The notes under the pieces: model-generated
What the model was told of the DNA's origin: nothing
The model's database searches: none
Seen by the model: only the letters and a program-made list of their open reading frames with translations
Made by a program: the position numbers and the translations under genes
Part shown: positions 10,666-62,010 of the stretch, piece after piece
How positions within the stretch are numbered: the first letter of the stretch is position 1
How the letters are laid out: each line of letters begins with the position of its first letter
NCBI RefSeq assembly: GCF_013409365.1
Contig: NZ_JACCBA010000001.1
Coordinates: forward strand, 992,001-1,056,000
Reading direction: 5' to 3'
DNA: 64,000 nt
Origin: Actinomadura luteofluorescens
Lineage (GTDB): Bacteria > Actinomycetota > Actinomycetes > Streptosporangiales > Streptosporangiaceae

Positions 10666-11139
10666 ATGCCACCGACGAACCCGCCGACCGGTTCGGCGAG
10701 CAGGCTCCAATGGCTGGTCGACCGGGCGGCGATCAGCGATCTGCTCATCGACGTCGCCCGCGCGCTCGACGACCGGGACTGGCAGGGCTACGCGGCCGAC
10801 TTCACCGAGGACGGCGTGCTCACCGTCTCACCGCTCATCGCCCAGACCATCACCCACCGCGGACGCGAGGGCATGGCCGAGTTCGTCGCCGGCAACCTCG
10901 GCCGATACGCAGGCACCCACCACCTCAGTACCAACCACGAGATCACACTGGACGGTGACACGGCCGAAGCGCGGTCCTGCTTCTTCGCCGCGCACCTGAT
11001 CGACGCGAACGACCCGCGACGACACGCCGACGGAGCCGGATGGCACCATTGGAAGCTCCGCCGCACCCCCGAAGGCTGGCGCTGCTCTCACCTCACCCTG
11101 GAGATCCGCTACTTCTCCGGCGAAGTCCTCCTGTCCTAG
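10666..11139 (+). CDS. SnoaL-like / NTF2-fold protein
   Basis: A 157-residue cone-shaped NTF2-fold protein. The opening ISDLLIDVARALDDRDWQ and DFTEDGVLTV are typical of SnoaL-like polyketide cyclases and of related dehydratases and isomerases (scytalone dehydratase-like group). The interior His/Asp pattern THHLSTNHEITLDGD could line the pocket. It starts at ATG 10666, with GGAAGGAA upstream, 47 bp after the kinase gene, so it is probably in the same transcript. Substrate unknown; it could cyclise or hydrate a product of this locus or of the type II PKS. Confidence 0.82.
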   Translation: MPPTNPPTGSASRLQWLVDRAAISDLLIDVARALDDRDWQGYAADFTEDGVLTVSPLIAQTITHRGREGMAEFVAGNLGRYAGTHHLSTNHEITLDGDTAEARSCFFAAHLIDANDPRRHADGAGWHHWKLRRTPEGWRCSHLTLEIRYFSGEVLLS

Positions 11140-11387
11140 CCGGAGTCCTGCCTCCGGGCCTCTTCTGGGTGGGCAATCGTCGATCGCTGGGCGCAGGATG
11201 TTCGATCCGCGAGGACGGGTGCCGTCCACCCTCCGCGTCAGAGGACGGCCCGGCGTCCGTCAAGTCCGACGCCGCCCCGGATACCCCAACAAGATCCTTC
11301 TCAACACGCGCTTCAATGACGTCGACGAACGACCGCCTTGCGAGTCTTCGGCAGCGCTCGGGGCCTGACGCCTGGAGGATTGCTGTC

Positions 11388-12627: not shown

Positions 12628-13307
12628 CGTGGCGCGTCGCGCGGCTGGCTGAGACGCGTCGGGAGACGGATACGGCCCGCACGCTCGTCTTCGATGTGCC
12701 GGGGTGGCCGGGCCATCTGGCCGGTCAGCATGTCGACGTGCGGCTGACCGCGGCAGATGGCTATACCGCGCAGCGCAGCTACTCGCTCTCCGCGCCTGAC
12801 CGGGTCGAGCTCACCGTGCAGCGGATAGCGGACGGTGAAGTCTCCCCGTATCTCACCGATGTGCTCGGCATCGGCGACCCCGTCGAGCTCCGGGGTCCGG
12901 TGGGCGGCTGGTTCGTGTGGCGGCCCGATGCGGGACGGGACGTCCTGCTGATCGCGGGCGGTTCCGGCGTCGCGCCGCTGATGGCCATGGTCCGTGCTCG
13001 CCGCCTGGCCGGCAGTGGCGCGCGGTTCCGGCTGGTGTACTCCACGCGCACGCCCGGGGACGTGTTCTACGCCGACGAGCTTCGGCGTCCCGAGCCCGGC
13101 CTGGATGTCGCGCATGTCTACACCCGGGTGGCGCCCGAGGGCTGGCCCCGCCCGCCCGGCCGGCTGACGGCGGCCGATCTCGGGGACGGGCCGCCCGACC
13201 GTGACTGCTTCGTCTGCGGGCCGACGGGGTTCGTGGAGTCGGCGGCCGACCTGCTGCTCGCCCGCGGTCACGACCCGCGCCGGATCAGGACCGAACGGTT
13301 CGGCTGA
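12597..13307 (+). CDS. Ferredoxin-NADP reductase-type FAD/NAD(P) oxidoreductase
   Basis: A 236-residue flavin reductase of the FNR family. FAD binding is shown by RSYSLSAP, the NAD(P) domain by GGSGVAPLMAM, and the C-terminal CGP in VCGPTGFVE is the usual nicotinamide-site Cys. No [2Fe-2S] domain is attached. ATG 12597 lies inside the preceding molybdopterin oxidoreductase gene, so the two are translationally linked, and it probably reduces that enzyme or a small carrier. An upstream in-frame extension to 12516 overlaps the neighbour more deeply and was not used. Confidence 0.9.
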   Translation: MARAAVPGRLTWRVARLAETRRETDTARTLVFDVPGWPGHLAGQHVDVRLTAADGYTAQRSYSLSAPDRVELTVQRIADGEVSPYLTDVLGIGDPVELRGPVGGWFVWRPDAGRDVLLIAGGSGVAPLMAMVRARRLAGSGARFRLVYSTRTPGDVFYADELRRPEPGLDVAHVYTRVAPEGWPRPPGRLTAADLGDGPPDRDCFVCGPTGFVESAADLLLARGHDPRRIRTERFG

Positions 13308-48168: not shown

Positions 48169-48230
48169 TTGTTGGCACGACCAACAATGCCGTGTATGGT
48201 TGGCAATACCAACGTTGGCCATGCCAACAA
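48169..48230. promoter_or_regulatory. Three-copy operator array GTTGG-N5-CCAAC
   Basis: Three copies of the same inverted repeat at 48171-48185 (arms extend to TTGTTGG/CCAACAA), 48199-48213 and 48214-48228. Starts are 28 and 15 nt apart; the last two abut. They end 26 bp before the epoxide hydrolase start codon, so they overlap the promoter. No regulator gene adjoins them. Confidence 0.75.
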
Positions 48231-48254
48231 AGTGGCGATCCCTGGAGTCAGAGC

Positions 48255-49361
48255 ATGATCAAGCCGTTCCGCATCGAGATCCCCCAGGCCGACCTCGACG
48301 ACCTGACCGACCGGCTCTCCCGCACCCGCTGGCCCAACGAGGTCGCCGGCGCCGGGTGGGACTACGGCTTCCCGCTGGCACGGCTCAGGGAACTGGCCGA
48401 GTACTGGCGCACCGGCTACGACTGGCGCGGGCACGAGGCCGAACTCAACGAGCTTCCGCACTTCACCACCGAGATCGAGGGCCAGAACATCCACTTCGTC
48501 CACGTCCGGTCGCCGAGACCGGACGCGCTCGCGCTGGTCCTCACCCACGGCTGGCCCGGCTCGTTCCTGGAGTTCCTCGACGTGATCGAGTCGCTGTCCC
48601 GCGACTTCCACCTGGTGATCCCGTCCATGCCGGGCTACGGCTTCTCCGGGCCGACCCACGAGCGCGGCTGGGACGTCACCAGGATCGCGCGGGCGTGGGC
48701 CGAACTGATGCGCCGTCTCGGCTACGAGCGCTACGGCGCGCAGGGCGGCGACTTCGGATCGGGCGTCTCGCTGGCGCTCGGCGCCGTGGCTCCCGAGCAG
48801 GTCGTCGGGGTCCACGTCAACTACCTGCCGACCCGACCGGACCCGGACGCGGGCATCGACCTGTCCGAGACGGACGAGGCCAGGCTCGACAAGGTCAGGC
48901 GGTTGATGGCCAACCGTCCCCCCTTCCAGGCTCTGCAGGCCCTCACCCCGCAGACCATCGGCTACGCGCTGACCGACTCGCCGGTCGGCCAGCTCGCCTG
49001 GATCGCCGAGCGCTTCGCGGAATGGACGGATCCTCGCTCGCAGATCAGCGACGACCGGATGCTCACCGACATCTCCCTGTACTGGCTGACCGCCACCGCG
49101 GCCTCCTCCGCGCGGCTGCACCACGACGCCCCGCGAAAGACCGAGCCGTGCCCGGTGCCGGTCGGGGTGGCGGTCCTCCCGCACGACATCACGCAGTCGG
49201 TGCGGCCGCTGGCCGAGCGGCTCTTCGACATCAGGCACTGGTCGGAGTTCGAGCGCGGCGGCCACTTCGCCGCGATGGAGGTGCCGGATCTGTTCGCCGA
49301 GGACGTCCGGGACTTCTTCCTCACCCTCGCCAAGGACGAGAATCCGGTCACCTCCCGCTAG
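48255..49361 (+). CDS. Alpha/beta-hydrolase epoxide hydrolase (EHN type)
   Basis: A 368-residue epoxide hydrolase converting epoxides to diols. It has the N-terminal EHN lid segment (PFRIEIPQADLDDLTDRLSRTRWP), the oxyanion motif HGWPG (98-102), the nucleophile D166 in GAQGGDFGSG and the C-terminal catalytic His in RGGHFAAMEVP. Two Tyr for epoxide polarisation are plausible in the cap region. Start ATG 48255, TGGAG upstream. The promoter carries three identical palindromes, implying tight control. It is convergent with the sulfur operon, 7 bp apart. Confidence 0.93.
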   Translation: MIKPFRIEIPQADLDDLTDRLSRTRWPNEVAGAGWDYGFPLARLRELAEYWRTGYDWRGHEAELNELPHFTTEIEGQNIHFVHVRSPRPDALALVLTHGWPGSFLEFLDVIESLSRDFHLVIPSMPGYGFSGPTHERGWDVTRIARAWAELMRRLGYERYGAQGGDFGSGVSLALGAVAPEQVVGVHVNYLPTRPDPDAGIDLSETDEARLDKVRRLMANRPPFQALQALTPQTIGYALTDSPVGQLAWIAERFAEWTDPRSQISDDRMLTDISLYWLTATAASSARLHHDAPRKTEPCPVPVGVAVLPHDITQSVRPLAERLFDIRHWSEFERGGHFAAMEVPDLFAEDVRDFFLTLAKDENPVTSR

Positions 49362-49368
49362 AAGACGG

Positions 49369-49713
49369 TCAGGGCGAGGAGCGGAGGCGTTCGGTGAAGA
49401 TGTGGTTGCGGTCCGCGCGGCTGCCCGGGGTGCGGCCGCGGCCCCAGCCGACGATGCGGCGGTACTCGCCGAACGCGTCGCCCAACACGTCCTCGTCGGT
49501 GTGGGGAGAGTCCGCCGGGGCCGGGCCGGTGAACGGCGCGACGTAGAGCGCGTCCGTCGGGCAGTGGGCCTCGCACATGAAGCAGGTCTGGCAGTCGCTC
49601 TGCCGGGCGATGACCGGGATACCGCCCGGGCCGCGGTCGAACACGTCCGTCGGGCAGACCTTGACGCACACGTCGCAGCGTACGCAGCGGTCCGCGCTCA
49701 CCACCTCGATCAT
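49369..49713 (-). CDS. 2x[4Fe-4S] ferredoxin-type iron-sulfur subunit, copy 1
   Basis: A 114-residue electron-transfer protein. Two cluster motifs: C10-x2-C13-x2-C16-x3-C20 and C41-x2-C44-x2-C47-x3-C51 (CQTCFMCEAHC). The C-terminal extension of about 60 residues ends with a WGRGRTPG motif shared with copy 2, probably wrapping the flavoprotein as in AprB. GAGGAGG precedes ATG 49713, which overlaps the flavoprotein stop as ATGA. It is the last gene of the operon. Confidence 0.9.
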   Translation of the reverse strand: MIEVVSADRCVRCDVCVKVCPTDVFDRGPGGIPVIARQSDCQTCFMCEAHCPTDALYVAPFTGPAPADSPHTDEDVLGDAFGEYRRIVGWGRGRTPGSRADRNHIFTERLRSSP

Positions 49714-51260
49714 GCCAGAGCCTCCTCGGGTTCGGCGGCCGTCCAGAGCCGGTCCAGACCTCCGACAAGGTGCCGGTGCTCGAACCGCGGCAGTTGCGGA
49801 AGGCCGTCCAGCCGGTGCATGCCCCGGGACTCGGGACGGGCCAGAGCGGCGCGGTAGCTCCACCGGGCGTGCGCCGTCATCGCCGCGGCCGATCTCGCGC
49901 GGAGACGTTCGCGGCCGGTTCCGGCGATGCCCTGGGAGGTGATCTGCTCCCACAGGGCGTCGAGCGAGGCGAGGGAGTCGCGAAGCCCGTCACGTGTCCG
50001 GAAGAGGTTGCGGTCGAGCGGCAGCATCTCGTCCTGCACGGCACGGACGACCGCCGCCGCGTCGAGCCGTCCGGGACGCAGGCCGGCGCGCCCGGCCGGG
50101 ACGGCGTGCGGACGTGCTCGTCCCACGGCGAACCCGGCGGCGCCCCGGCCGGCCCAGGTGCCCGAGGAGATCGCCCATGCTCCGTTGTAGGCACCGCCGC
50201 CGCTGACGGCGCCGGACACCAGCTCCCGCGTCGCGACGTCACCGGCGGCGTAGAGGCCGGGGACGGTCGTCGCGCAGTCGTCGCCGACGATCCGCAGACC
50301 GCCCGTCCCTCGGACCGTGCCCTCCAGCACCATGCGCAGCTCGTAACGGTCGCGAAAAGGGTCGATCCCCGCCTTGTCCAGTGGGAGGAAGTAGTTCGGC
50401 TGGGCGTCCCGCATCGCCTCGTGCAGGTGCGGAGGCGCCTTGTCCAGACGCGCGAACACCTTCTCCCCCGCCGCGAGCCGCTCCGCGACGCGGATCCTGG
50501 CGCCGAGCGGGTCCGGCACGTCGATCGGGGCGCCGTCCTCGGCGTAGTACGTCGCGAACTGCATCATCAGGCCCTTGGTGTGCGAACCGTGTGCCGGGGA
50601 GAACGCGTAGGCGCTGGAGAACTCCATGCCCGACAGCTCGGCGCCCAGCTCGGCGGCCATCAGGTGCCCGTCACCGGTGTCGACGTTGGTGCCGAACGCG
50701 CCGGAAAGGAACGCGCAACCGCCGGTGGCCAGGACGACCGCGCCCGCGCGGACGGTCCACGTCTCGCCGCCCTTCTGGCGGGCGATGCCGGACGCGCCGG
50801 CCGCGACGCCCCAGTCGTCCACGAGCAGCCGCAGCGCGGGATGGTGGTCGAGGATCGTCACGCCCGATCTGTGCACACGGCGCCGCATCCGCTTCATGTA
50901 CTCGGGCCCCTGGAGGCTGCCCCGCCGCTCGACGCCGTCCTCGCCGGAGGGGAACGGGTAGCCGAAAGAGGCGAGGTCGTCGACACGGCGGTAGGTCTCG
51001 TCAAGGACGCGCGCCATGACACGGCGGTCGGCGAGCCGGCCGCTCTGCTCGAAGCGCTCGTCGACGGCCCGTGCCCGCGCCTCGGTGTCCGGCGGGACGT
51101 ACCAGAGGTTGTTGCCGCCCGACGCGGTCGGGCCGCTGGTCCCGCAGTAGCCCTTGTCCGCGAGGACGACCGCGGCCCCGGCGCCGGCCGCGGCGAGCGC
51201 CGCCCACGCCCCGGCGGGCCCGCCGCCGAGGACGAGGACGTCGGCGTCCAGCCGGGTCAC
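49710..51260 (-). CDS. AprA/fumarate-reductase-type flavoprotein, copy 1
   Basis: A 516-residue FAD-dependent oxidoreductase of the succinate dehydrogenase/fumarate reductase/adenylylsulfate reductase alpha family. FAD is bound by DVLVLGGGPAGAWAALAA at the N-terminus and by GLYAAGDVATREL near residue 350; the capping region carries VVLATGGCAFLSGAFGTN and GTGGLRIVGD. GTG 51260 overlaps the binding-protein stop as GTGA, and the gene is followed by its own two-cluster ferredoxin. Substrate unknown; the operon context indicates an imported organosulfur compound or a sulfur oxyanion (inference). Confidence 0.88.
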   Translation of the reverse strand: MTRLDADVLVLGGGPAGAWAALAAAGAGAAVVLADKGYCGTSGPTASGGNNLWYVPPDTEARARAVDERFEQSGRLADRRVMARVLDETYRRVDDLASFGYPFPSGEDGVERRGSLQGPEYMKRMRRRVHRSGVTILDHHPALRLLVDDWGVAAGASGIARQKGGETWTVRAGAVVLATGGCAFLSGAFGTNVDTGDGHLMAAELGAELSGMEFSSAYAFSPAHGSHTKGLMMQFATYYAEDGAPIDVPDPLGARIRVAERLAAGEKVFARLDKAPPHLHEAMRDAQPNYFLPLDKAGIDPFRDRYELRMVLEGTVRGTGGLRIVGDDCATTVPGLYAAGDVATRELVSGAVSGGGAYNGAWAISSGTWAGRGAAGFAVGRARPHAVPAGRAGLRPGRLDAAAVVRAVQDEMLPLDRNLFRTRDGLRDSLASLDALWEQITSQGIAGTGRERLRARSAAAMTAHARWSYRAALARPESRGMHRLDGLPQLPRFEHRHLVGGLDRLWTAAEPEEALA

Positions 51261-52228
51261 GGCCTGGCTCCGGGCGCCAGCCAGGAGTCGAGCGTGTAGT
51301 CCTTCTTGACGAGCGCCTGCCGGACGAGGAACGTCTTGGTCCCGTCGAGCAACTTCAGACCCTCGGCCGGAAAGGGCTCGTCGGGCAGCTGGTCCTTCAG
51401 TGTCGTCTTGACCGAGATGTCGGGGGCGTAGCCGCCGGTCTCGGCCACGTACGCGGTGTAGCCGGGCCAGTCGGCCTTGGCGACCTTCGCGGCCCTCGTC
51501 TCGGCCTTCTGCCACACCTGGACGATGTCCTTGTGCCCCGCCAGGTACTTCTCCGTCACCACGGTGACGGACGTGCCGAGCAGGTCGGGATGGTCCCGCG
51601 ACGCGATGTCGATCGACCGGTAGCCCTTCTTCTCCTGCGCGGCCTGGTCGGCGGAGACCAGGCCGCCGGCGTCGATCGCGTTCTTCTCCAGCGCCGCGAT
51701 GATCGCCGGCGTGTACATGTGGATGATCTCCTTCGGCCTCACCCCGGCCCGCTCCAGCGCGCCGAGCAGGTAGCGGTGGATGTAGGAGCCGGTCTGGACG
51801 CCGATCCGCTTGCCCTCCAGGTCCTTCAGGGACGCGGGCCCGCCGTCCTTCCTCGCGACGATCGCGGCGTCGAGGCGGACGGAGTTGAGCGACAGCAGCC
51901 GGGTCGGCAGGCCCTGCCCCCGGCCGATCAGGGCGGGGGTGTCCCCGTACTGGCCGATGTCGAGGGAGCCGCCGGCGAGGGCCTGGTTCAGGTCGGGGCC
52001 GTTCGGGAACGTCGCGACCCGGATCCTGGTGATGCCGGCGGCCTTCAGCTCGGGCAGCAGCTCGCCGCGCCGGTCGAGGAACCCGACGGCGCGGGTCAGC
52101 TTGTTGCCGGCCCCCGACCCGATCACTCCGATGCGGAGCGTCCCGGAGCCGCTGTCGGCCTCGGAGGAGCCGCACGCCGTCGCGGCGAGGACGAGGAGGC
52201 CGGCGGCCAGAGCTCGGGGAAATCTCAC
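51257..52228 (-). CDS. SsuA/TauA-like solute-binding lipoprotein
   Basis: A 323-residue receptor of the NMT1/SsuA/TauA class for sulfonate-type ligands. The lipobox ATAC gives lipidated Cys19. The mature part shows the family pattern FPNGPDLNQALAGGSLDIGQYGDTPALIGRGQG and GKRIGVQTGSYIHRYLLGALE. GTG start with AAAGG upstream. It lies between two flavoprotein/ferredoxin pairs rather than next to the permease, so the transporter genes are split, but all are in one minus-strand operon. Confidence 0.9.
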   Translation of the reverse strand: MRFPRALAAGLLVLAATACGSSEADSGSGTLRIGVIGSGAGNKLTRAVGFLDRRGELLPELKAAGITRIRVATFPNGPDLNQALAGGSLDIGQYGDTPALIGRGQGLPTRLLSLNSVRLDAAIVARKDGGPASLKDLEGKRIGVQTGSYIHRYLLGALERAGVRPKEIIHMYTPAIIAALEKNAIDAGGLVSADQAAQEKKGYRSIDIASRDHPDLLGTSVTVVTEKYLAGHKDIVQVWQKAETRAAKVAKADWPGYTAYVAETGGYAPDISVKTTLKDQLPDEPFPAEGLKLLDGTKTFLVRQALVKKDYTLDSWLAPGARP

Positions 52229-52263
52229 GTGGTTGCCTTTCGCGGGGTCGATCGAGTGGTGTC

Positions 52264-52605
52264 TCAGGAGGTGAGGGGGGCGCCCGGGTCGAGCGACGGG
52301 CCGATCGCGAGCCTGGCGCCGGGGGTGCGGCCCCGGCCCCAGCCGATCTGCGCGCGGTAGGCGCCGAGCGTCCCGTCCGCGGCGAGCGCCGCCTCGTCCG
52401 GAGGCTCGGGCAGCGCGTGCGAGCGCGGGTCGACGAACAGGGCGTCGGCCGGGCAGTACGCCTCGCACATGAAGCAGGTCTGGCAGTCGCCCTGCCGGGC
52501 GATGACCGGGACGCCGTCCGCTCCGCGGTCGAAGACGTTCGTCGGGCACACGTCCACGCACTTGTCGCAGGCGATGCACCGCTCCCGCGAGACGATCTCG
52601 ATCAC
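52264..52605 (-). CDS. 2x[4Fe-4S] ferredoxin-type iron-sulfur subunit, copy 2
   Basis: A 113-residue paralogue of the protein at 49369-49713 with the same eight Cys (C10, C13, C16, C20, C41, C44, C47, C51) and the same WGRGRTPG motif in its tail. GTG 52605 overlaps the flavoprotein stop as GTGA. It should form a heterodimer with the copy 2 flavoprotein and pass electrons through its two clusters. Confidence 0.9.
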   Translation of the reverse strand: MIEIVSRERCIACDKCVDVCPTNVFDRGADGVPVIARQGDCQTCFMCEAYCPADALFVDPRSHALPEPPDEAALAADGTLGAYRAQIGWGRGRTPGARLAIGPSLDPGAPLTS

Positions 52606-54170
52606 GACGCCACCGCCTCGTCCTCCGGACGCGTCCAGATCTCGTCGAGGCCGCCGGTGACGAGCCGGCGGTGCTGGGCCGGGTCCTGGTCGGGCAGGTC
52701 CTGGCGCTTGTGCATGCCCCGCGTCTCGGTGCGGGTGAGCGCGGCGCGGTACATCCAGCGGGCGTGCGCGGTCATCGCGGCGGCCGACCTCGCCCGGACG
52801 ACCCCGGCGCCCTCCTCGCGGAGCGTGCCGCGCAGCTGCCGCCACGTCCGGTCCAGGACGTCCAGTGCCGGGGCGAGGCGCCCGCCGTGCCGCAGCAGGT
52901 TCTTGTCGTAGGGCAGCACCTCGGCCTGGACGGCGGCGACGTAGTCGGCGTGGCCGCCGGCCGCCGTCCCCTCCGGGCGGACGCCCGCCTCGCCGAGGGC
53001 GTGCACGGTCCGCGCTCCGGCGCGCCCGCCCAGTCCGGCGGCGTACCGGGCGGCGCCCTGCCCGGCCCAGGTGCCCGACGACATCGCCCACGCGGCGTTG
53101 TGGCTTCCGCCGCCGGTGAAGCCGCCGCAGATCAGTTCGCGGGTCGCGGCGTCCCCCGCCGCGTACAGGCCGGGCACCGTGGTGGAGCAGTCGGCGCCGG
53201 TGATCCGGATGCCGCCGGTGCCGCGGACCGTCCCCTCGGCGAGGAGGGTGACGGGGAACAGGTCCGTGAACGGGTCGATGCCCTGCCGGTCGAACGGGAG
53301 GAAGAAGTTCGCCTGCGCGAGCCGCATCGCCCGCCGGTCCTCGGGCGTGGCCCGGTCGATGCGGCACAGGACGGGTTCGCTGAGCAGCGTCCGGGCGATC
53401 ACCGATCGTCCCCGCCGGCTGCCCGCCCCTTCCAGTACGGTCCCGTCCGCGTGGTAGAAGGTGGCGAACGAGTAGAACGCCGTCTTGGTCACGGACGTGA
53501 AGGCCGGGGCGATCGCGTAGGCGTTGGAGAACTCCATGCCGGACAGTTCCGCGCCCGCCTCCGCCGCGAACAGGGCGCCGTCCCCGGTGTTGACGTCGCA
53601 GCCCAGCGCCTTGCTGAGGAAGGCGCACCCGCCGGTCGCGAGCACGACCGCGCCCGCTCGGACCCGGAACGGCCGGTCGTCCCGCACGCGGTACCCGGCG
53701 GCGCCGGCGACGGCCCCGGCGCCGTCCGCGAGCAGTTCGGTGACCGGGCTGTGGTCGAGGACCCGCACCCCCGACCGGCGGACCCGCACGCGCATCCGCC
53801 GCATGTACTCGGGCCCCTGCAGGCCCCGCCTGATCTGGCGGCCGTTCCCGTCCTCCGGGAACGGGTACCTGGAGATCTCGGCCAGCTCGTTCATGTTCGC
53901 GTACGTCTGGTCGAGGACGCGGGCCATCCACCCGCGGTCGGCGAGGTACCCGCCGAGGGCCTCGCGGCCGGCCATGGCCGCCTCCCGGGCCTCCGGGTCC
54001 GGCTCGACGTACCAGACCCCGGTGCCCGCCGACGCCGTCGCGCCGCTCGTCCCGAGGTAGCCCTTGTCGGCGAGGACGACGTCGGCGCCGGCCTCCGCGG
54101 CCTTGATCGCGGCCCACGCGCCGGCGGGGCCGCCGCCCGCGACGAGCACGTCGGCGGTCAGATCGGTCAT
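52602..54170 (-). CDS. AprA/fumarate-reductase-type flavoprotein, copy 2
   Basis: A 522-residue paralogue of copy 1. FAD motif DVLVAGGGPAGAWAAIKAA, cap ATGGCAFLSKALGCDVNTGDG, C-terminal FAD segment PGLYAAGDAATRELICGG. The tails are alike in both copies (RSAAAMTAHARWMYRAAL). AAGGAGG sits 5 nt before ATG 54170, 16 bp after the ATPase stop. Two such copies in one operon suggest two different but related reactions, or a two-step oxidation. Confidence 0.88.
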   Translation of the reverse strand: MTDLTADVLVAGGGPAGAWAAIKAAEAGADVVLADKGYLGTSGATASAGTGVWYVEPDPEAREAAMAGREALGGYLADRGWMARVLDQTYANMNELAEISRYPFPEDGNGRQIRRGLQGPEYMRRMRVRVRRSGVRVLDHSPVTELLADGAGAVAGAAGYRVRDDRPFRVRAGAVVLATGGCAFLSKALGCDVNTGDGALFAAEAGAELSGMEFSNAYAIAPAFTSVTKTAFYSFATFYHADGTVLEGAGSRRGRSVIARTLLSEPVLCRIDRATPEDRRAMRLAQANFFLPFDRQGIDPFTDLFPVTLLAEGTVRGTGGIRITGADCSTTVPGLYAAGDAATRELICGGFTGGGSHNAAWAMSSGTWAGQGAARYAAGLGGRAGARTVHALGEAGVRPEGTAAGGHADYVAAVQAEVLPYDKNLLRHGGRLAPALDVLDRTWRQLRGTLREEGAGVVRARSAAAMTAHARWMYRAALTRTETRGMHKRQDLPDQDPAQHRRLVTGGLDEIWTRPEDEAVAS

Positions 54171-54186
54171 GATGCCTCCTTGGCAG

Positions 54187-55059
54187 TCAGACGGTTGGTC
54201 GAGCGGAGCTCGTCGGTTGAATGGCGGCGGGTGGGGGCTGGAGGACGGTTGGTCGAGCGGAGCTCGTCGGTTGAATGGCGGCGGGTGGGGGCTGGAGGAC
54301 GGTTGGTCGAGCGGAGCTCGTCGGTTGAATGGCGGCGGGTGGGGGCTGGAGGACGGTTTGGATGCCGAGCCCGTCGAGCAGGTCGCGCCGCAGCGCGATG
54401 AACCTCGGGTCGTCCAGCGACCTCGGTCTCGGGAGGTCGACGGCGTACTCCCGCTCGATCCGGCCGTCCGCGAGCAGGAGCGCGCGGTCGGCGAGCAGCA
54501 GCGCCTCCTCGACGTCATGGGTGACCAGCAGGACCGCCGGCCGGTGCTCGGCCCACAGGTCGGCGACGAGCGCCTGGGCGTTGAGCCGGGTGAGCGCGTC
54601 CAGGGCCCCGAACGGCTCGTCGAGCAGGAGCAGGTCGGGCGTCCGCACCAGCGCCCGCGCCAGCGCGACGCGCTGGGACTCGCCGCCCGACAGGGTGAGC
54701 GGCCACGCGTCGGCGCGAGCCGTCAGCCCGACCTCCGCCAGGGCCGCCTCGGCCCGCCCGCGCAGGTCGCGTCCCCGCAGGCCGAGGACGACGTTGTCCC
54801 ACACCCGGCTCCAGGGCAGCAGGCGGTGCTCCTGGTAGACGACGGCCCGCCTGCCGGGAACATCGATCTCGCCGCCGCCTTCGCCGTCCAGCCCGGCCAG
54901 TGCGCGCAGCAGCGTGCTCTTCCCGGAGCCGCTCGCCCCGAGCAGGGCGACGAACTCGCCGGGCGCGATGTCGAGGTCGACGCCGTCCAGGACGGCGCGC
55001 TCGCCGAACACCCGCCTGAGGCCGCGGACGCGCACGCCGCTCGCAACCGTCGCCGTCAT
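54187..55059 (-). CDS. ssuB: SsuB-like ABC transporter ATPase with repeat tail
   Basis: A 290-residue ATPase of a nitrate/sulfonate/taurine-type importer. Walker A GASGSGKST, signature LSGGESQRVALARAL, Walker B LLLLDEPFGALD and H-loop VTHDVEEALL are all intact. The fold ends at about residue 235 (DLLDGLGIQ). The last 54 residues are three identical copies of the 18-residue unit TVLQPPPAAIQPTSSARP, encoded by perfect 54-bp DNA repeats. ATG 55059 overlaps the permease stop as ATGA. Confidence 0.93.
   Translation of the reverse strand: MTATVASGVRVRGLRRVFGERAVLDGVDLDIAPGEFVALLGASGSGKSTLLRALAGLDGEGGGEIDVPGRRAVVYQEHRLLPWSRVWDNVVLGLRGRDLRGRAEAALAEVGLTARADAWPLTLSGGESQRVALARALVRTPDLLLLDEPFGALDALTRLNAQALVADLWAEHRPAVLLVTHDVEEALLLADRALLLADGRIEREYAVDLPRPRSLDDPRFIALRRDLLDGLGIQTVLQPPPAAIQPTSSARPTVLQPPPAAIQPTSSARPTVLQPPPAAIQPTSSARPTV
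54191..54352. repeat. Three perfect 54-bp tandem repeats
   Basis: Units 54191-54244, 54245-54298 and 54299-54352 look identical base for base. A partial fourth unit breaks off after six bases. Each keeps the ATPase frame (18 codons) and contains a small palindrome CGAGC-GGA-GCTCG, so the mRNA could form three equal hairpins just ahead of the copy 2 flavoprotein start. Confidence 0.95.
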
Positions 55060-55904
55060 CGCGCCACCAGCCCCCTCCGCCACGCGAGGGCGCGCCGCTC
55101 GACGAGCCGCACCAGCAGGTCCGTCGAAACGCCGAGCAGCGCGTACACCACGAGCACCAGGAAGACCGTGTCCATCTGCAGGAACTGGGTGGCCTGGTTG
55201 ATGACGAAGCCGATGCCGCTGGCCGTCGCGGACTGCTCCACGACGACGAGCGTCAGCCAGGCGACACCGAGCGACAGGCGCAGGCCGACGAGGATCTGCG
55301 GGAGCGCGCCGGGCAGGATGACCTTCCGGATGAGGCCGAGACGGCCGAGCCCGCAGGTACGGGCCGACTCCACCAGCCGCTCGTCCACGCCCCGGATGCC
55401 GTGGAACACGTTGATGTAGAGCGGGAAAACGACGCCGACCGCGATCAGGCCGACCTTGGACGTCTCGCCGATCCCGAACCAGATGATGAACAGCGGGACC
55501 AGCGCGAGGTGCGGAAGCATCCGGACCGCCTGGACCGGCGCGTCGATGACGTCCTCGCTGATCCTGAACAGCCCGGAGAGCAGTCCGAGGACGAGGCCGG
55601 CCGGCAGCCCGACCGCCAGTCCCTTCAGGACCCGCGCCAGCGAGACTCCGAGATTCTGGAACAGCGCGCCCGACGACGCCATCTCCCAGCCGCGGACGGC
55701 GACGTCGCTGAGCGGCGGGGTCGTGCTGCCGAGCCAGCCCGCGCGGGCGCCGGCCTCCCACAGGGCGAGGACGACGACAAGCCCGCTGACCTTGCGGGCC
55801 CGGCGCAGCAGGGACAGCAGCACGGCGCCGGAACGGGCGGCGTCCGCGGGCCGCGCCGCTTCGGGGATCGCCGAGCGGGGTGGATCGAGCAGATGGGTGG
55901 ACAC
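55056..55904 (-). CDS. ssuC: SsuC-like ABC transporter permease
   Basis: A 282-residue membrane subunit of the nitrate/sulfonate/taurine importer family. About six membrane segments are visible, with the EAA-type loop ERLVESARTCGLGRLGLIRKVILPGALPQIL. The GTG start at 55904 has GGAGG 7 nt upstream. It is the first structural gene of the sulfur operon and follows the leader peptide ORF by 114 bp. Confidence 0.92.
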   Translation of the reverse strand: MSTHLLDPPRSAIPEAARPADAARSGAVLLSLLRRARKVSGLVVVLALWEAGARAGWLGSTTPPLSDVAVRGWEMASSGALFQNLGVSLARVLKGLAVGLPAGLVLGLLSGLFRISEDVIDAPVQAVRMLPHLALVPLFIIWFGIGETSKVGLIAVGVVFPLYINVFHGIRGVDERLVESARTCGLGRLGLIRKVILPGALPQILVGLRLSLGVAWLTLVVVEQSATASGIGFVINQATQFLQMDTVFLVLVVYALLGVSTDLLVRLVERRALAWRRGLVAR

Positions 55905-57533: not shown

Positions 57534-60500
57534 TCAGACCGGAATCGGATATATATCGCAGTCCGCGCGGGCTCCCTCTTGCGCGGCCGCTGTGGCCAGA
57601 TGCTGGGGGCCGTGTACCCTGCGCATGCCGTCGATGGCGCGCTCCGTCAGGCTGCCGGCCTCCTGCTCCTCCTCCAGCGCGCGCAGGTCGAGCCCGAGGT
57701 TGAGCATGCATGCCAGCGAGGTGGGGTGCTCCTCCCCGAGGACGCGCTGCGCCCGTTCCAGGGTCTCCCGGTCCCTCTCCATGGCCTCATGGAAATTGCC
57801 GACCGCGTAGTGGTCACTGGCCAGATTGATCGCACAGACGATGCTGCGCGGGTGGTCGATGCCGAGGACCCGGGTCAGGACCTCCAGTGCCGCCTCGTCC
57901 AGCTTCTTGGCCTCTTCGAGCTGCCCGTTCAGCCGGAGGGCGACCGCGAGGTTGATGTTCGCGCTCGGCGTGTTGGGGTGATCGGGGCCGAACATCCGCA
58001 GGAAGTTCTGCGCCGTGATGCGCGCCAGACGAATCGAGTCGCCGAGCCTGCCGACCTGGCGCAGGTTCACCGCGTGGTTCAGCGCGGCGGAGATCGAACC
58101 CGGATGGTACTGCCCGTACCGCTCGTTGTAGCGTTCAAGCGCCTCGGTGGAGAGATCGAGTGCGCGCTCGTGGTCTCCTGCCTTGCGCTCCATCACAGAG
58201 AGCGCGGTCAGGCTTTCGGCAAGGCCGGCGAAACTGCTGCCGAATGCGGATTCGAGGCGCTGCGCGTTCTGCCGCGTCAGCTCTCTCGCCACTTCGAAGT
58301 GGCCCAGCTCCATCTCGTCCACGGCGACCGCCGCCAGGGACGACAGGGTCCGGCCGTGGTGCTCCCCGAAGATGTTGATCAAGTGCCGGTAGGTCTGCCG
58401 GTCGAGATCGCACGCCGCCCGGAAGTCACCGTTGAGGCGGAGGCTGATGGCGTAGAGGTGAGCCTGCTGCAGGGTGGTGGGGTCGTCCTCGCCGTACATA
58501 CGGCGCAGTGCCTCGAAGGAGCGCCTGTCGTATTCGAGAGCCTGCTGGAACTGCCCCAGGTAGCGCAGGTCGGCCGTCACGAAGCGCTGCGCGTCGATCG
58601 TGCGCTCGTCGTCCGCGCCGTGCTCCTCGGCCCGCAGGTCGCGGACCCGGAGATGGTGAACGTACGCCTCCTCGAACCGCCCCTGCAGGCGCATGGCGCG
58701 ACCAAGGTGCAGCATGGCCTCCTGCACCTGCTCGTTGCCCTCGCCCAGCATCTCCGTCCAGGTCTTGACCGCGGTCTCCGCCAGTTCGAGGAAGCCTCGG
58801 TGGTCGCCCCACTGGAAGAGGAAGTCGATCTCGTTGAGGACGAGCCGGCGCGTCCAGGGGTCGTCGAAGCCGACGACGCCCGAGTAGTGGACGTGCGGCA
58901 GCAGATCGGCGTAGCGCCGCCAGTTGGCGGGCAGCGCCGGGTCGCGCGGGTCGAAGTTGGCCATCAGCTGGTAGCCGCACCGGCGCAGCTCCTCGGCCTC
59001 TCCGGGCGGGATCTGCCCGACGAGGACGCGCTGGACCAGGCGGTGCAACATGATCGTGTTGTGCTTGTGGCTGATCCTCGCCAGGGCGTACCGGTTGATC
59101 GCACGGATCGCGCGCCCCCGCCTGACCGGGTCCCCCAGGGCCTCGATCAGCTCGGGAGGACCGTCGACGTTGCGCGCGCCGGACAGCATCCGCAGCGAGA
59201 TCGGCTCCGGCGCGAAGAACGCGCAGACCTGGAGCAGTTGCAGCGCCGCGGGGTCGCTCGTCCGCAGCCGGTCCAGGGAGACGTTCCAGGGCCGCGGCGA
59301 CCGGCAGCTCGTTGGCCACGAGCGCGGCGTCGGCCAGCAGCTCGGTCGCCTTCTCGTGCTTCTCCCTGAAGAGCTGGAGGTACTCGTCGACCGGCATGCC
59401 GGTCTCGGCGAGCCAGACTCCGGCCTGGGCGATCGCCAGCGGAAGGTCGCCGAGCACCTCGGCGAGCTCGTCCGCCTCGGCGTCGGCGAGCTCGGGCCCG
59501 CGGAGGCGGAGCAGGGCCTTGCTCTCCTCCCGGGCGAAGACGTCGACCTCCAGGGAGCTGGCGACCTTCGTCCACTCCTGGTTGCGGGAGGTGACAAGGA
59601 TCTTGCCCGGGCCGTTGGTCGGGAAGAAGTCGCGGACGTCCTGGAGTTCCTCGGCGTTGTCGAAGACCAGCAGCCAGTTGCGGTAGGGGCGGCCGAGGCG
59701 CAGCGCCTCGCGGACGGCCGGCACCGCGACGTTGACCTCCTGGCTGACCGGCAGGTCGAGCTCGGCCGCCAGTTCGGCGAGGTCCTGCTGGATCTGGCCG
59801 GGCCGCTCCGATCTGATCCACCAGATGACGTCATAATCCGCCATATGACGGTAAACATATTCAATGGCTATCTGGGATTTGCCGACCCCGCCCATTCCAT
59901 GCAAAGCCTGCGGCAGGACCGCCGTCGTTCCCTCCGAAAGGCGCTCATGGAGTTGCTCCAGCAACTCTTCCCGCCCGGTGAAACTGATGTTCTGTGGAGG
60001 TACGTTTCCCCAGACGGGCGGCGGCTCGTCCGCCTTGCGCCCGACTTTCTCCGGGATATCTCGAACTGTCACACCGACTCCAAGGTGGGGGGCCTTGACA
60101 ATGTCCTCAGGTCTGGTGAGCGCATCGAGAGCGGCGATGTCCAGCGATTGCATGGAGCCAGTCCTTCCCGCATCTCGCACGGCTCTAGCCTGGATTCGTT
60201 CATAGAGAGGGTCAATTTTGCCGTGGAGTTCGGCGTCCAGCGCCTTCGCCGGCCTGAGATAGGGCCCGGCCAGCGCCCTGAAGACATGCAGAACGGGAAG
60301 GGCGAACGGCACGAGTTCGGCAGTCAATTCTGGCATTTCAGCCCGCTCCGGCGCGGTGACCAGTCCGGCCAGATCGCGGAGCCCGGCGATGCGGTCGCCC
60401 AGATGCCGGGCCACCGTCGTCAGCACCCGGGTCGTGTCGGAGCGCCGCCCCCCGGCGAGGAGTTCGTCGCGGACCCCGGGAGCGAAGTCGAAGACGACCT

Positions 60501-62010
60501 CGTCCCGCGCGTCGGCCCCCGGCCCGGGCTCGGGGCCGACCCGGTGCAGCAGTCCGCTGCCGACCAGTTCGACCAGGTCGGAGGGCCGCGACTCCGGAAG
60601 CATGGTGCGCTGGACGAGCCGCATGACCGGGGCGTTCAGGGGCGCCGCGGCCAGGTGCACCGCCAGGGCGTACACGGTCGGGCTGACCGCCGCGCGGAAC
60701 CGCCGGACGATCTCGGGCGCCGACGCCTCCGAGGGCGGGGCCTCCTCGATGTCCGCCGCGTCCGGCGCCCAGGAGGGTTCCGGGGGTGCTCCGCAGACGG
60801 CGACCGCGCCGTACCAGTCACCGCGGCGCGCCGCCGCGAACCCAGCCCAGCCGGCGAGCTGCCCCGGATCCAGCTCGATCACGGGCACGTGGACATGTGA
60901 ACGGTCCGCGTGCCGGGGCTCGGCGGCCGGGTCGCCGAGGAGGGGTGCGGCGGGGTAGCGCGCTCGGTAGAGGCGGTTGGCGATCGCGGGCCGCGCCGCG
61001 TAGAGCTTGGCGGGCCTGGTGGTGAGGCCCGTGCGCCGCCACTGGCGCCGGGCGAGCAGATTGATCACCACGATCGGGGCCTGCCGGCCCCACCGGGCCA
61101 GCAGTCGCTGGGCGGCGCCCGAGTGCCAGGCGTCTCCGATCCCGTCCGTCAGCACGAAGATGAGCCGCCGGTCGCGGCGTCCCCGGGAGGTGAGGCCCTC
61201 GGCCGCGCGCGCGGCGGCCAGCGGGCCCGTCTCGCGCAACGCCAGCGGCCCGCTCTCGCCGGTGTCGGTGTCGAGCAGGTGCGTGCGGATCATCCCGAAG
61301 GCGCCGACGGCCCCGAGGCAGTCGATGAACCGCTCGGTCGTCGGCCGGTTGAGCGCGGCCAGGCGCCCGTCGTCCACGACGACGTCGAGATCGAGCCACC
61401 GTTCGGGGACGGGACGTGTCTGGGGCAGCCAGAGACCGTCCTCGGCGGCGCGGATCGCCGTCGCCTCGTCGTCCAGTTCCACCTCGCCCCGGCGGGACTC
61501 GACCGCCCGTTTGAAAGGGCGGAGCGCCTGTTCGAGGCGGCGCCGGTCGGTCAGGGGCCGTACTCCGGCGAACGGGTCGCTCCGCACGGGGAAGAGGAGG
61601 CGAGGGGGCGCGGCGTGCCCGTTCATCCCCGCCCGATGCGGTGCCGGGTCCTGCGGGCCTTCGCCTCGGGACGTTCCGAGAGCCGACGCCGGCGGCGTCC
61701 CGGCCGCACCGGGCATGGTCGCCTGCTCTGCGCCGGGAGAGGAGTCGCGCGAAACGCCGTCAGGGCCGGCGCCCTCTGGAGGCTCGGCACGATCGGCGGC
61801 GGAGGCGGCACCGTTCGCGGACCGCCGCTGCTCCGCCTGGGGTGCGCGCGCCGCGGCGGGATCTCCCTCGCGGCCCGCCGCGAGGGCGGCGGCGTTCATC
61901 TGCGCGGCCAGCCAGATGGCGTCGGAGACCTGGTGCCAAAGGGGAGGACCGGCCGGGGCGTCGGGACGTCCCGCGCCTCGCGCCGCTGGGTCTCCGGTCC
62001 GCTCGCTCAC
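57534..62010 (-). pseudogene. vWA-like / NB-ARC / TPR protein (SAV_2336, FxSxx-system type), frameshifted
   Basis: A large STAND-type protein, about 1491 residues if one base is ignored. Residues 1-130: Pro/Ala-rich lead. About 135-480: SAV_2336-type domain with vWA-like strands (LDLDVVVDDGRL; LIFVLTDGIGDAWHSG). About 690-900: NB-ARC with P-loop HGMGGVGKSQIA. The rest: many TPR/kinesin-light-chain-like repeats (FGPDHPNTPSANINLAVALR). The frame breaks at 59289-59291: a CCC run on the coding strand carries one extra C between VAAA and WNVSLDRLR. The total length of 4477 bases (3n+1) fits one insertion. The upstream frame reads on to a stop at 58426; the true TPR frame ends at 57534. The start ATG 62010 overlaps the MoxR stop as ATGA. 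A sequencing error is possible. Confidence 0.83.

Follow-up and report, generated by a model that had tools for sequence, protein, structure and literature searches.

A candidate cysteine-controlled sulfur-scavenging operon with paired flavoprotein-ferredoxin modules in Actinomadura luteofluorescens

We analysed a stretch of 64,000 nucleotides (64 kb) of the Actinomadura luteofluorescens genome (positions 992,001 to 1,056,000 of contig NZ_JACCBA010000001.1), referred to here as the window. It contains an operon of seven minus-strand genes at 55904-49369, which encode in order a permease, an ATPase, a flavoprotein (FP2), a ferredoxin (Fd2), a substrate-binding protein, a second flavoprotein (FP1) and a second ferredoxin (Fd1) (Table 1). 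An original prediction, made from the sequence alone, had described seven coupled genes in this order, and our analysis confirms it. The accompanying statement that nearly every junction overlaps is correct for four of six: there are 4-nt overlaps between permease and ATPase (ATGA), FP2 and Fd2 (GTGA), binding protein and FP1 (GTGA), and FP1 and Fd1 (ATGA), but gaps of 16 nt between ATPase and FP2 and of 35 nt between Fd2 and binding protein. Likewise, the interval originally assigned, 49369-55904, covers the seven genes but leaves out a short leader open reading frame (ORF) ahead of them. The third-position GC content is 0.90-0.97 across all seven genes. Because the gene order recurs in relatives (both flavoproteins occur in 12 of 60 genomes of the genus, our own included), it is not a chance arrangement.

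Table 1. Features of the operon and its upstream region
Feature	Position	Strand	Size	Remarks
Imperfect inverted repeat TTCCCAGGTAAAACGGTAGGTTTTATCGGGAA, possible operator	56206-56175	-		~85 nt upstream of leader; common to relatives
Leader peptide ORF MNAAKVLVARRHVDLLRVCSASC, predicted cysteine-responsive attenuator	56090-56019	-	23 codons	NF042936/NF042934 matches; conserved in genus
SsuC-like ATP-binding cassette (ABC) permease	55904-55056	-	282 amino acids (aa)	BPD_transp_1; PRK11365 SsuC 221.8 bits, cut-off 347 not reached
SsuB-like ABC ATPase with repeat-encoded C-terminal extension	55059-54187	-	290 aa	PRK11247 242.7 bits, cut-off 395 not reached
FP2, flavin adenine dinucleotide (FAD) flavoprotein, fumarate reductase/AprA superfamily; proposed core catalytic subunit	54170-52602	-	522 aa	
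Fd2, two-cluster [4Fe-4S] ferredoxin with conserved tail	52605-52264	-	113 aa	Fer4 domains
SsuA-like substrate-binding lipoprotein	52228-51257	-	323 aa	Lipobox judged by eye
FP1, diverged FP2 paralogue	51260-49710	-	516 aa	
Fd1, ferredoxin partner of FP1	49713-49369	-	114 aa	Fer4 domains

FP1 and FP2 are 57-58% identical to each other and belong to the fumarate reductase/AprA superfamily. The original prediction was right about the superfamily, but a close identity with AprA did not survive: FP2 and FP1 score 46.9 and 43.8 bits on NF005331 against a cut-off of 557, and fold and pocket residues also differ. We rejected FrdA or succinate dehydrogenase as well (48-61 bits on TIGR01812, TIGR01176 and PRK09231; cut-offs 567-933), and also NadB (67.5 and 76.9 bits on TIGR00551; cut-off 452.75). 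A separate NadB-like gene lies elsewhere in the genome (a 225-aa stretch of locus L141). The best fumarate reductase-type row is TfrA (NF004900), at 91-99 bits against a cut-off of 718. When known folds were ranked, FrdA, NadB and 3'-phosphoadenosine 5'-phosphosulfate (PAPS) reductase came nearer than AprA, with FrdA and succinate dehydrogenase nearest. Nor does the AprA substrate pocket appear to be kept. By alignment or offset, AINTY of AprA becomes GVWYV in FP2, Leu189 stands where Trp234 would be, and the stretch aligned around Arg265, FP2 214-227, holds no Arg; Asn74, Trp234 and Arg265, which we take to be the residues lining the adenosine 5'-phosphosulfate (APS) pocket, and whose letters at those numbers we confirmed, thus seem to have no counterpart in FP2. 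Similarly, His is missing both from FP2 213-239 and from the motif EGTVRGTGG (E312-G320), where His232 and His355, presumably the numbers of the catalytic FrdA residues, would be expected. K229, R316 and R344 of FP2 are among the polar residues invariant in 55 of 55 rows; model residues 314-316 have a predicted local-distance difference test score (pLDDT) below 50. Existing labels on family members include L-aspartate oxidase and succinate dehydrogenase/fumarate reductase. Overall, these alignments suggest that FP1 and FP2 belong to a separate, as yet uncharacterised family, which occurs in Actinomycetota, Nostocales and Paenibacillus and lacks the key residues of both AprA and FrdA.

In both Fd1 and Fd2 the CxxCxxCxxxCP motif occurs twice and the C-terminal tail is conserved; none of the eight Cys varies among the 20 aligned rows. 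The motifs predict a partner with two [4Fe-4S] clusters, as AprA has, and the proposed pair of paralogous FAD/2[4Fe-4S] modules therefore stands.

The two modules do not look equivalent. Among the same 60 genomes, counted from the listed rows with 24 candidates scored per genome, an FP2 orthologue was found in 16 and FP1 in 12 of these 16, and none had FP1 alone. The four genus loci without a whole FP1 (L116, L034, L035 and L118) keep FP2, Fd2, the binding protein and the importer. In L116, an intact FP2 module is followed by mere pieces of FP1 and the initial 14 residues of Fd1 (10890-11351); in L034, 21 residues directly behind the binding-protein gene match FP2 residues 1-21 (12912-12974); L035 and L118 show no trace of FP1. 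Because the FP2 module persists without FP1 and FP1 is unseen without FP2, we read FP2 as the probable core module and FP1 as a derived, dispensable add-on, which modifies the original proposal of two equal successive steps. In the tree, FP1 forms one clade of 11 rows beside 31 other actinomycete rows, with 100% support in the Shimodaira-Hasegawa-like approximate likelihood ratio test (SH-aLRT) and a stem of 0.7 changes per column.

Double arrangements also occur in cyanobacteria, where L066 and L077 have the order flavoprotein, ferredoxin, binding protein, flavoprotein, with one ferredoxin. In two further Nostocales loci, the first flavoprotein is partly seen (L063) or not seen (L083), and in all four of these loci the roughly 1.7 kb behind the last flavoprotein contain no further ferredoxin motif. 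Both kinds of cyanobacterial copies fall among cyanobacteria in the tree. A single duplication behind actinomycete FP1 and the cyanobacterial second copy was rejected at a cost of 35.8 log units (approximately unbiased test, p-AU 0.03), a rejection that is only moderate, coming from a quick tree and a hypothesis named once the tree was known. The module is patchily distributed: matches at E <=1e-90 were present in 3 of 81 genomes of the order (at most 18 candidates scored per genome), and a phylum sample gave at least 2 of 296 genomes (4 candidates scored per genome), our own included in both. One scan found at least 522 encoded relatives, the best 80 of which supply 80 of the 89 flavoprotein loci compared below; a wider homologue search gave 4896 matches among 7999 candidates scored and may reach into the wider superfamily.

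What might such modules act on? The binding protein models best on SsuA and has an SsuA-type fold; its score on the SsuA family TIGR01728 is 108.6 bits, below the curated cut-off of 163.5. We also looked at the neighbourhoods of relatives, using six homemade profiles (SfnG, SfnB/DszC, SsuD, two NtaA/DszA-like groups and TauD) that were built from the flavoprotein loci themselves. At E <=1e-25, sulfone/sulfonate monooxygenase-type genes lie near the flavoprotein in 49 of 89 loci, compared with 1 of 18 control stretches (20 were asked for, 2 of which did not exist); overlapping frames may double hit totals but not locus counts. The single control with matches, L131, holds a cluster of SfnG, SfnB and SsuD. 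All controls come from the genus itself, whereas the 89 loci span phyla, are related to each other and vary in length from about 6 to 21.5 kb; Fisher values should therefore be read as descriptive. The same six profiles had no match in the window at E <=1e-5, in agreement with the prediction that it encodes no desulfonating oxygenase.

A second line of evidence comes from the leader ORF, which stood out because its coding stretch hardly varies among relatives, unlike the sequence around it. It matches the NCBIfam family of the Ms4527A Cys-rich leader, NF042936, with 34.6 bits (E 9.9e-9; cut-off 45) and NF042934 with 25.4 bits (cut-off 27). A short Cys-containing ORF of this type is conserved ahead of the operon throughout the genus: all 16 genus loci (L033-L039, L113-L121) carry RRH[VI]DLLRVCSA, as do L041 and L042. 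A broader motif occurs in 32 of the 89 loci, is absent from all 18 controls and has a single match in the window, although both patterns were devised once matches were known and a few matches of the strict pattern (for example L111) may be due to chance. All six other-genus loci picked from the motif matches (L047, L048, L053, L054, L056 and L057) pass the NF042934 cut-off, and the leaders of the nearer relatives L036 and L041 score 22-24 bits, below it. The leader RNA folds slightly better than shuffles (z -2.30, with 3 of 200 being as good). No convincing leader turned up in motif scans around the PAPS_reduct and TauD genes of the genome. In mycobacteria, Cys-rich leaders have been reported as cysteine-responsive attenuators (Canestrari 2020, as cited in PMC9031893 and PMC13236596). 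The leader thus points to control by cysteine or sulfur, and it likely senses sulfur shortage.

Further upstream, the full TTCC...GGAA form of the inverted repeat is found in 7 of 28 upstream regions scanned, the window included, and its half GTAGGTTTT in 15 of 28, among them 12 of 16 genus loci. Genome-wide, TAAAWCGGTAGGTTTT has 1 exact match and 8 with <=3 mismatches, and the reversed pattern has 2. The next-best match of the palindrome core precedes an ORF that we take, from its sequence, to be glutamate-synthase-like, a match that gives the site no link to sulfur genes. Judged by eye, the long ORFs ahead of the operon, at 57534-62010 (-), appear NTPase-like and repeat-like. Within the operon, a 54-bp direct repeat (3.1 perfect copies, 54190-54358, -) at the 3' end of the ATPase gene lengthens the C-terminus in frame; related stretches occur in three other places in the genome. 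An epoxide-hydrolase-like gene at 48192-49361 (+) was considered as an operon member and ruled out, being convergent. The window has no Rfam match at gathering scores and no tRNA by ARAGORN.

We compared the operon with several known systems. The PAPS reductase of Methanothermococcus thermolithotrophicus (MtPAPSR, 8a8o; PMC10322725) has a similar fold, but identity is 19% over aligned residues and its substrate is PAPS; the operon in the window, by contrast, includes an importer, and none of its seven genes is for nucleotide activation. Compared with AprBA (1jnr, 2fja), FP2 is shorter by about 120 residues (522 versus 643), and the flavoproteins reach 44-47 bits on its model. SsuABC and TauABC, which work with SsuD and TauD, resemble the operon in importer subunits, binding-protein fold and sulfur context, but the operon has redox pairs in place of the monooxygenase. 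PRK13800-type flavoproteins (L043, L048, L082, L083 and L121) are AprA/fumarate reductase superfamily members that also lie near our loci and beside SsuABC-like transporter genes, most clearly in L048; they are downstream of the importer genes in L048 and L121, and L120 is similar. However, they fall on a separate side of the tree with 100% support, the L048 copy passes the PRK13800 cut-off of 1196 with 1466.5, and the AprA-type SGAxAxG...VN stretch is present in 4 of the 5 copies. Finally, the leader shares the RRHVDLLRVCSASC motif ahead of an operon with the mycobacterial Ms4527A and Ms5788A leaders, but attenuation in the window is a prediction.

Together, these data lead us to propose a cysteine-controlled sulfur-scavenging operon in which FP2-Fd2 frees sulfur without O2, a reading to which we give a probability of about 0.55. 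When cysteine is short, the leader peptide would release expression of the operon, and the SsuABC-like importer would bring in a sulfonate-type compound. FP2-Fd2 would then cleave off the sulfur group without O2, probably as sulfite: the N5 of reduced FAD, with electrons from the two clusters, would attack the sulfur in an activated sulfo group, and the resulting adduct of flavin and sulfite would yield sulfite for the cell's sulfite reductase. FP1-Fd1 may act after FP2 in a second step or widen the substrate range. We infer the chemistry, the substrate and the direction of electron flow. The scavenging role itself seems likely, and organosulfur import, part of the original prediction, is supported by the binding-protein fold, the neighbours in relatives and the Cys leader. 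The reductive step is put forward tentatively, by analogy with APS and PAPS reductases, for which an attack of reduced FAD through N5 has been proposed (PMC10322725). Such an attack needs a leaving group (S-O, S-N or S-S), which makes an activated sulfo compound a more plausible substrate than a plain alkanesulfonate.

Several observations weigh against this proposal. A plain alkyl C-S bond would not suit an attack that requires a good leaving group. Since the alignment shows no equivalent of Asn74 or Arg265 of AprA, the N5-sulfite mechanism is proposed by analogy within the superfamily; by fold, FrdA comes out ahead of both PAPS reductase and AprA. The window's leader stays under both curated cut-offs, and the leader motif is absent from 57 of 89 loci, including the double-module loci L051, L064 and L109 and all those of cyanobacteria and Paenibacillus. 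In 40 of 89 loci none of the six organosulfur families lies in the fetched stretch, 27 of 89 have no SsuC- or SsuA-like gene by an 8-kb criterion, and the genome has two TauD-family genes elsewhere.

The nearest competing explanation keeps the sulfur scavenging and reverses the chemistry. FP2 would dehydrogenate a sulfonate at carbon, like succinate dehydrogenase, passing electrons to Fd2, and FP1 would oxidise the product again, with sulfite leaving by later elimination. The nearest folds are those expected of such an enzyme, two oxidations would fit two paralogues in series, and FP1 was not seen without FP2 in the 60 genomes. Nevertheless, FP2 is unlike FrdA in having no His at the two presumed catalytic places, and the single-pair operons L105 and L112 have no obvious second enzyme, which leaves this a possibility we regard as less likely.

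That the operon scavenges a carboxylate or a nitrogen compound, with Cys leader and neighbours incidental, appears improbable. Binding proteins with the SsuA fold are also used for nitrate, bicarbonate and pyrimidines, and the 40 loci without organosulfur families would be explained; but the leader is present in every genus locus, with leader-like ORFs in other genera too, the neighbour counts differ between loci and controls, and SsuA is the best match of the binding-protein model. It is more improbable still, to the point of being very hard to credit, that the two flavoprotein-ferredoxin pairs merely supply electrons to a monooxygenase encoded elsewhere. An NtaA-type FMN monooxygenase does lie directly before the flavoprotein in some Streptomyces and mycobacterial loci (L048, L067 and L084), but L105 and L112 keep importer, flavoprotein and ferredoxin with none of the six monooxygenase families represented nearby, a substrate site is part of the FrdA/AprA fold itself, and the polar residues K229, R316 and R344 are invariant.

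In aerobic bacteria, sulfonate sulfur is known to be acquired through the O2-dependent enzymes SsuD, TauD and SfnG. The superfamily and the importer type of our operon are known; the family, its coupling to an importer and the Cys leader are not described in the literature searched. We found no description or tested function of the flavoprotein-ferredoxin pair or of the operon there, subscription papers lying mostly outside the search, so that a description may exist; the available parts of PMC8557817, PMC7661421 and PMC9861168 do not mention the pair. The original prediction that no pathway with this double arrangement had been described agrees with that search. It is conceivable, but for now speculative, that a widespread, O2-independent family of importer-coupled FAD/ferredoxin reductases liberates sulfite from organosulfur compounds, and that actinomycetes and cyanobacteria each gained another copy independently for two serial reductions. 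If the proposal is true, the importer-linked redox pair would be an added sulfur route in hundreds of genomes, and the Cys leader makes its sulfur role directly testable.

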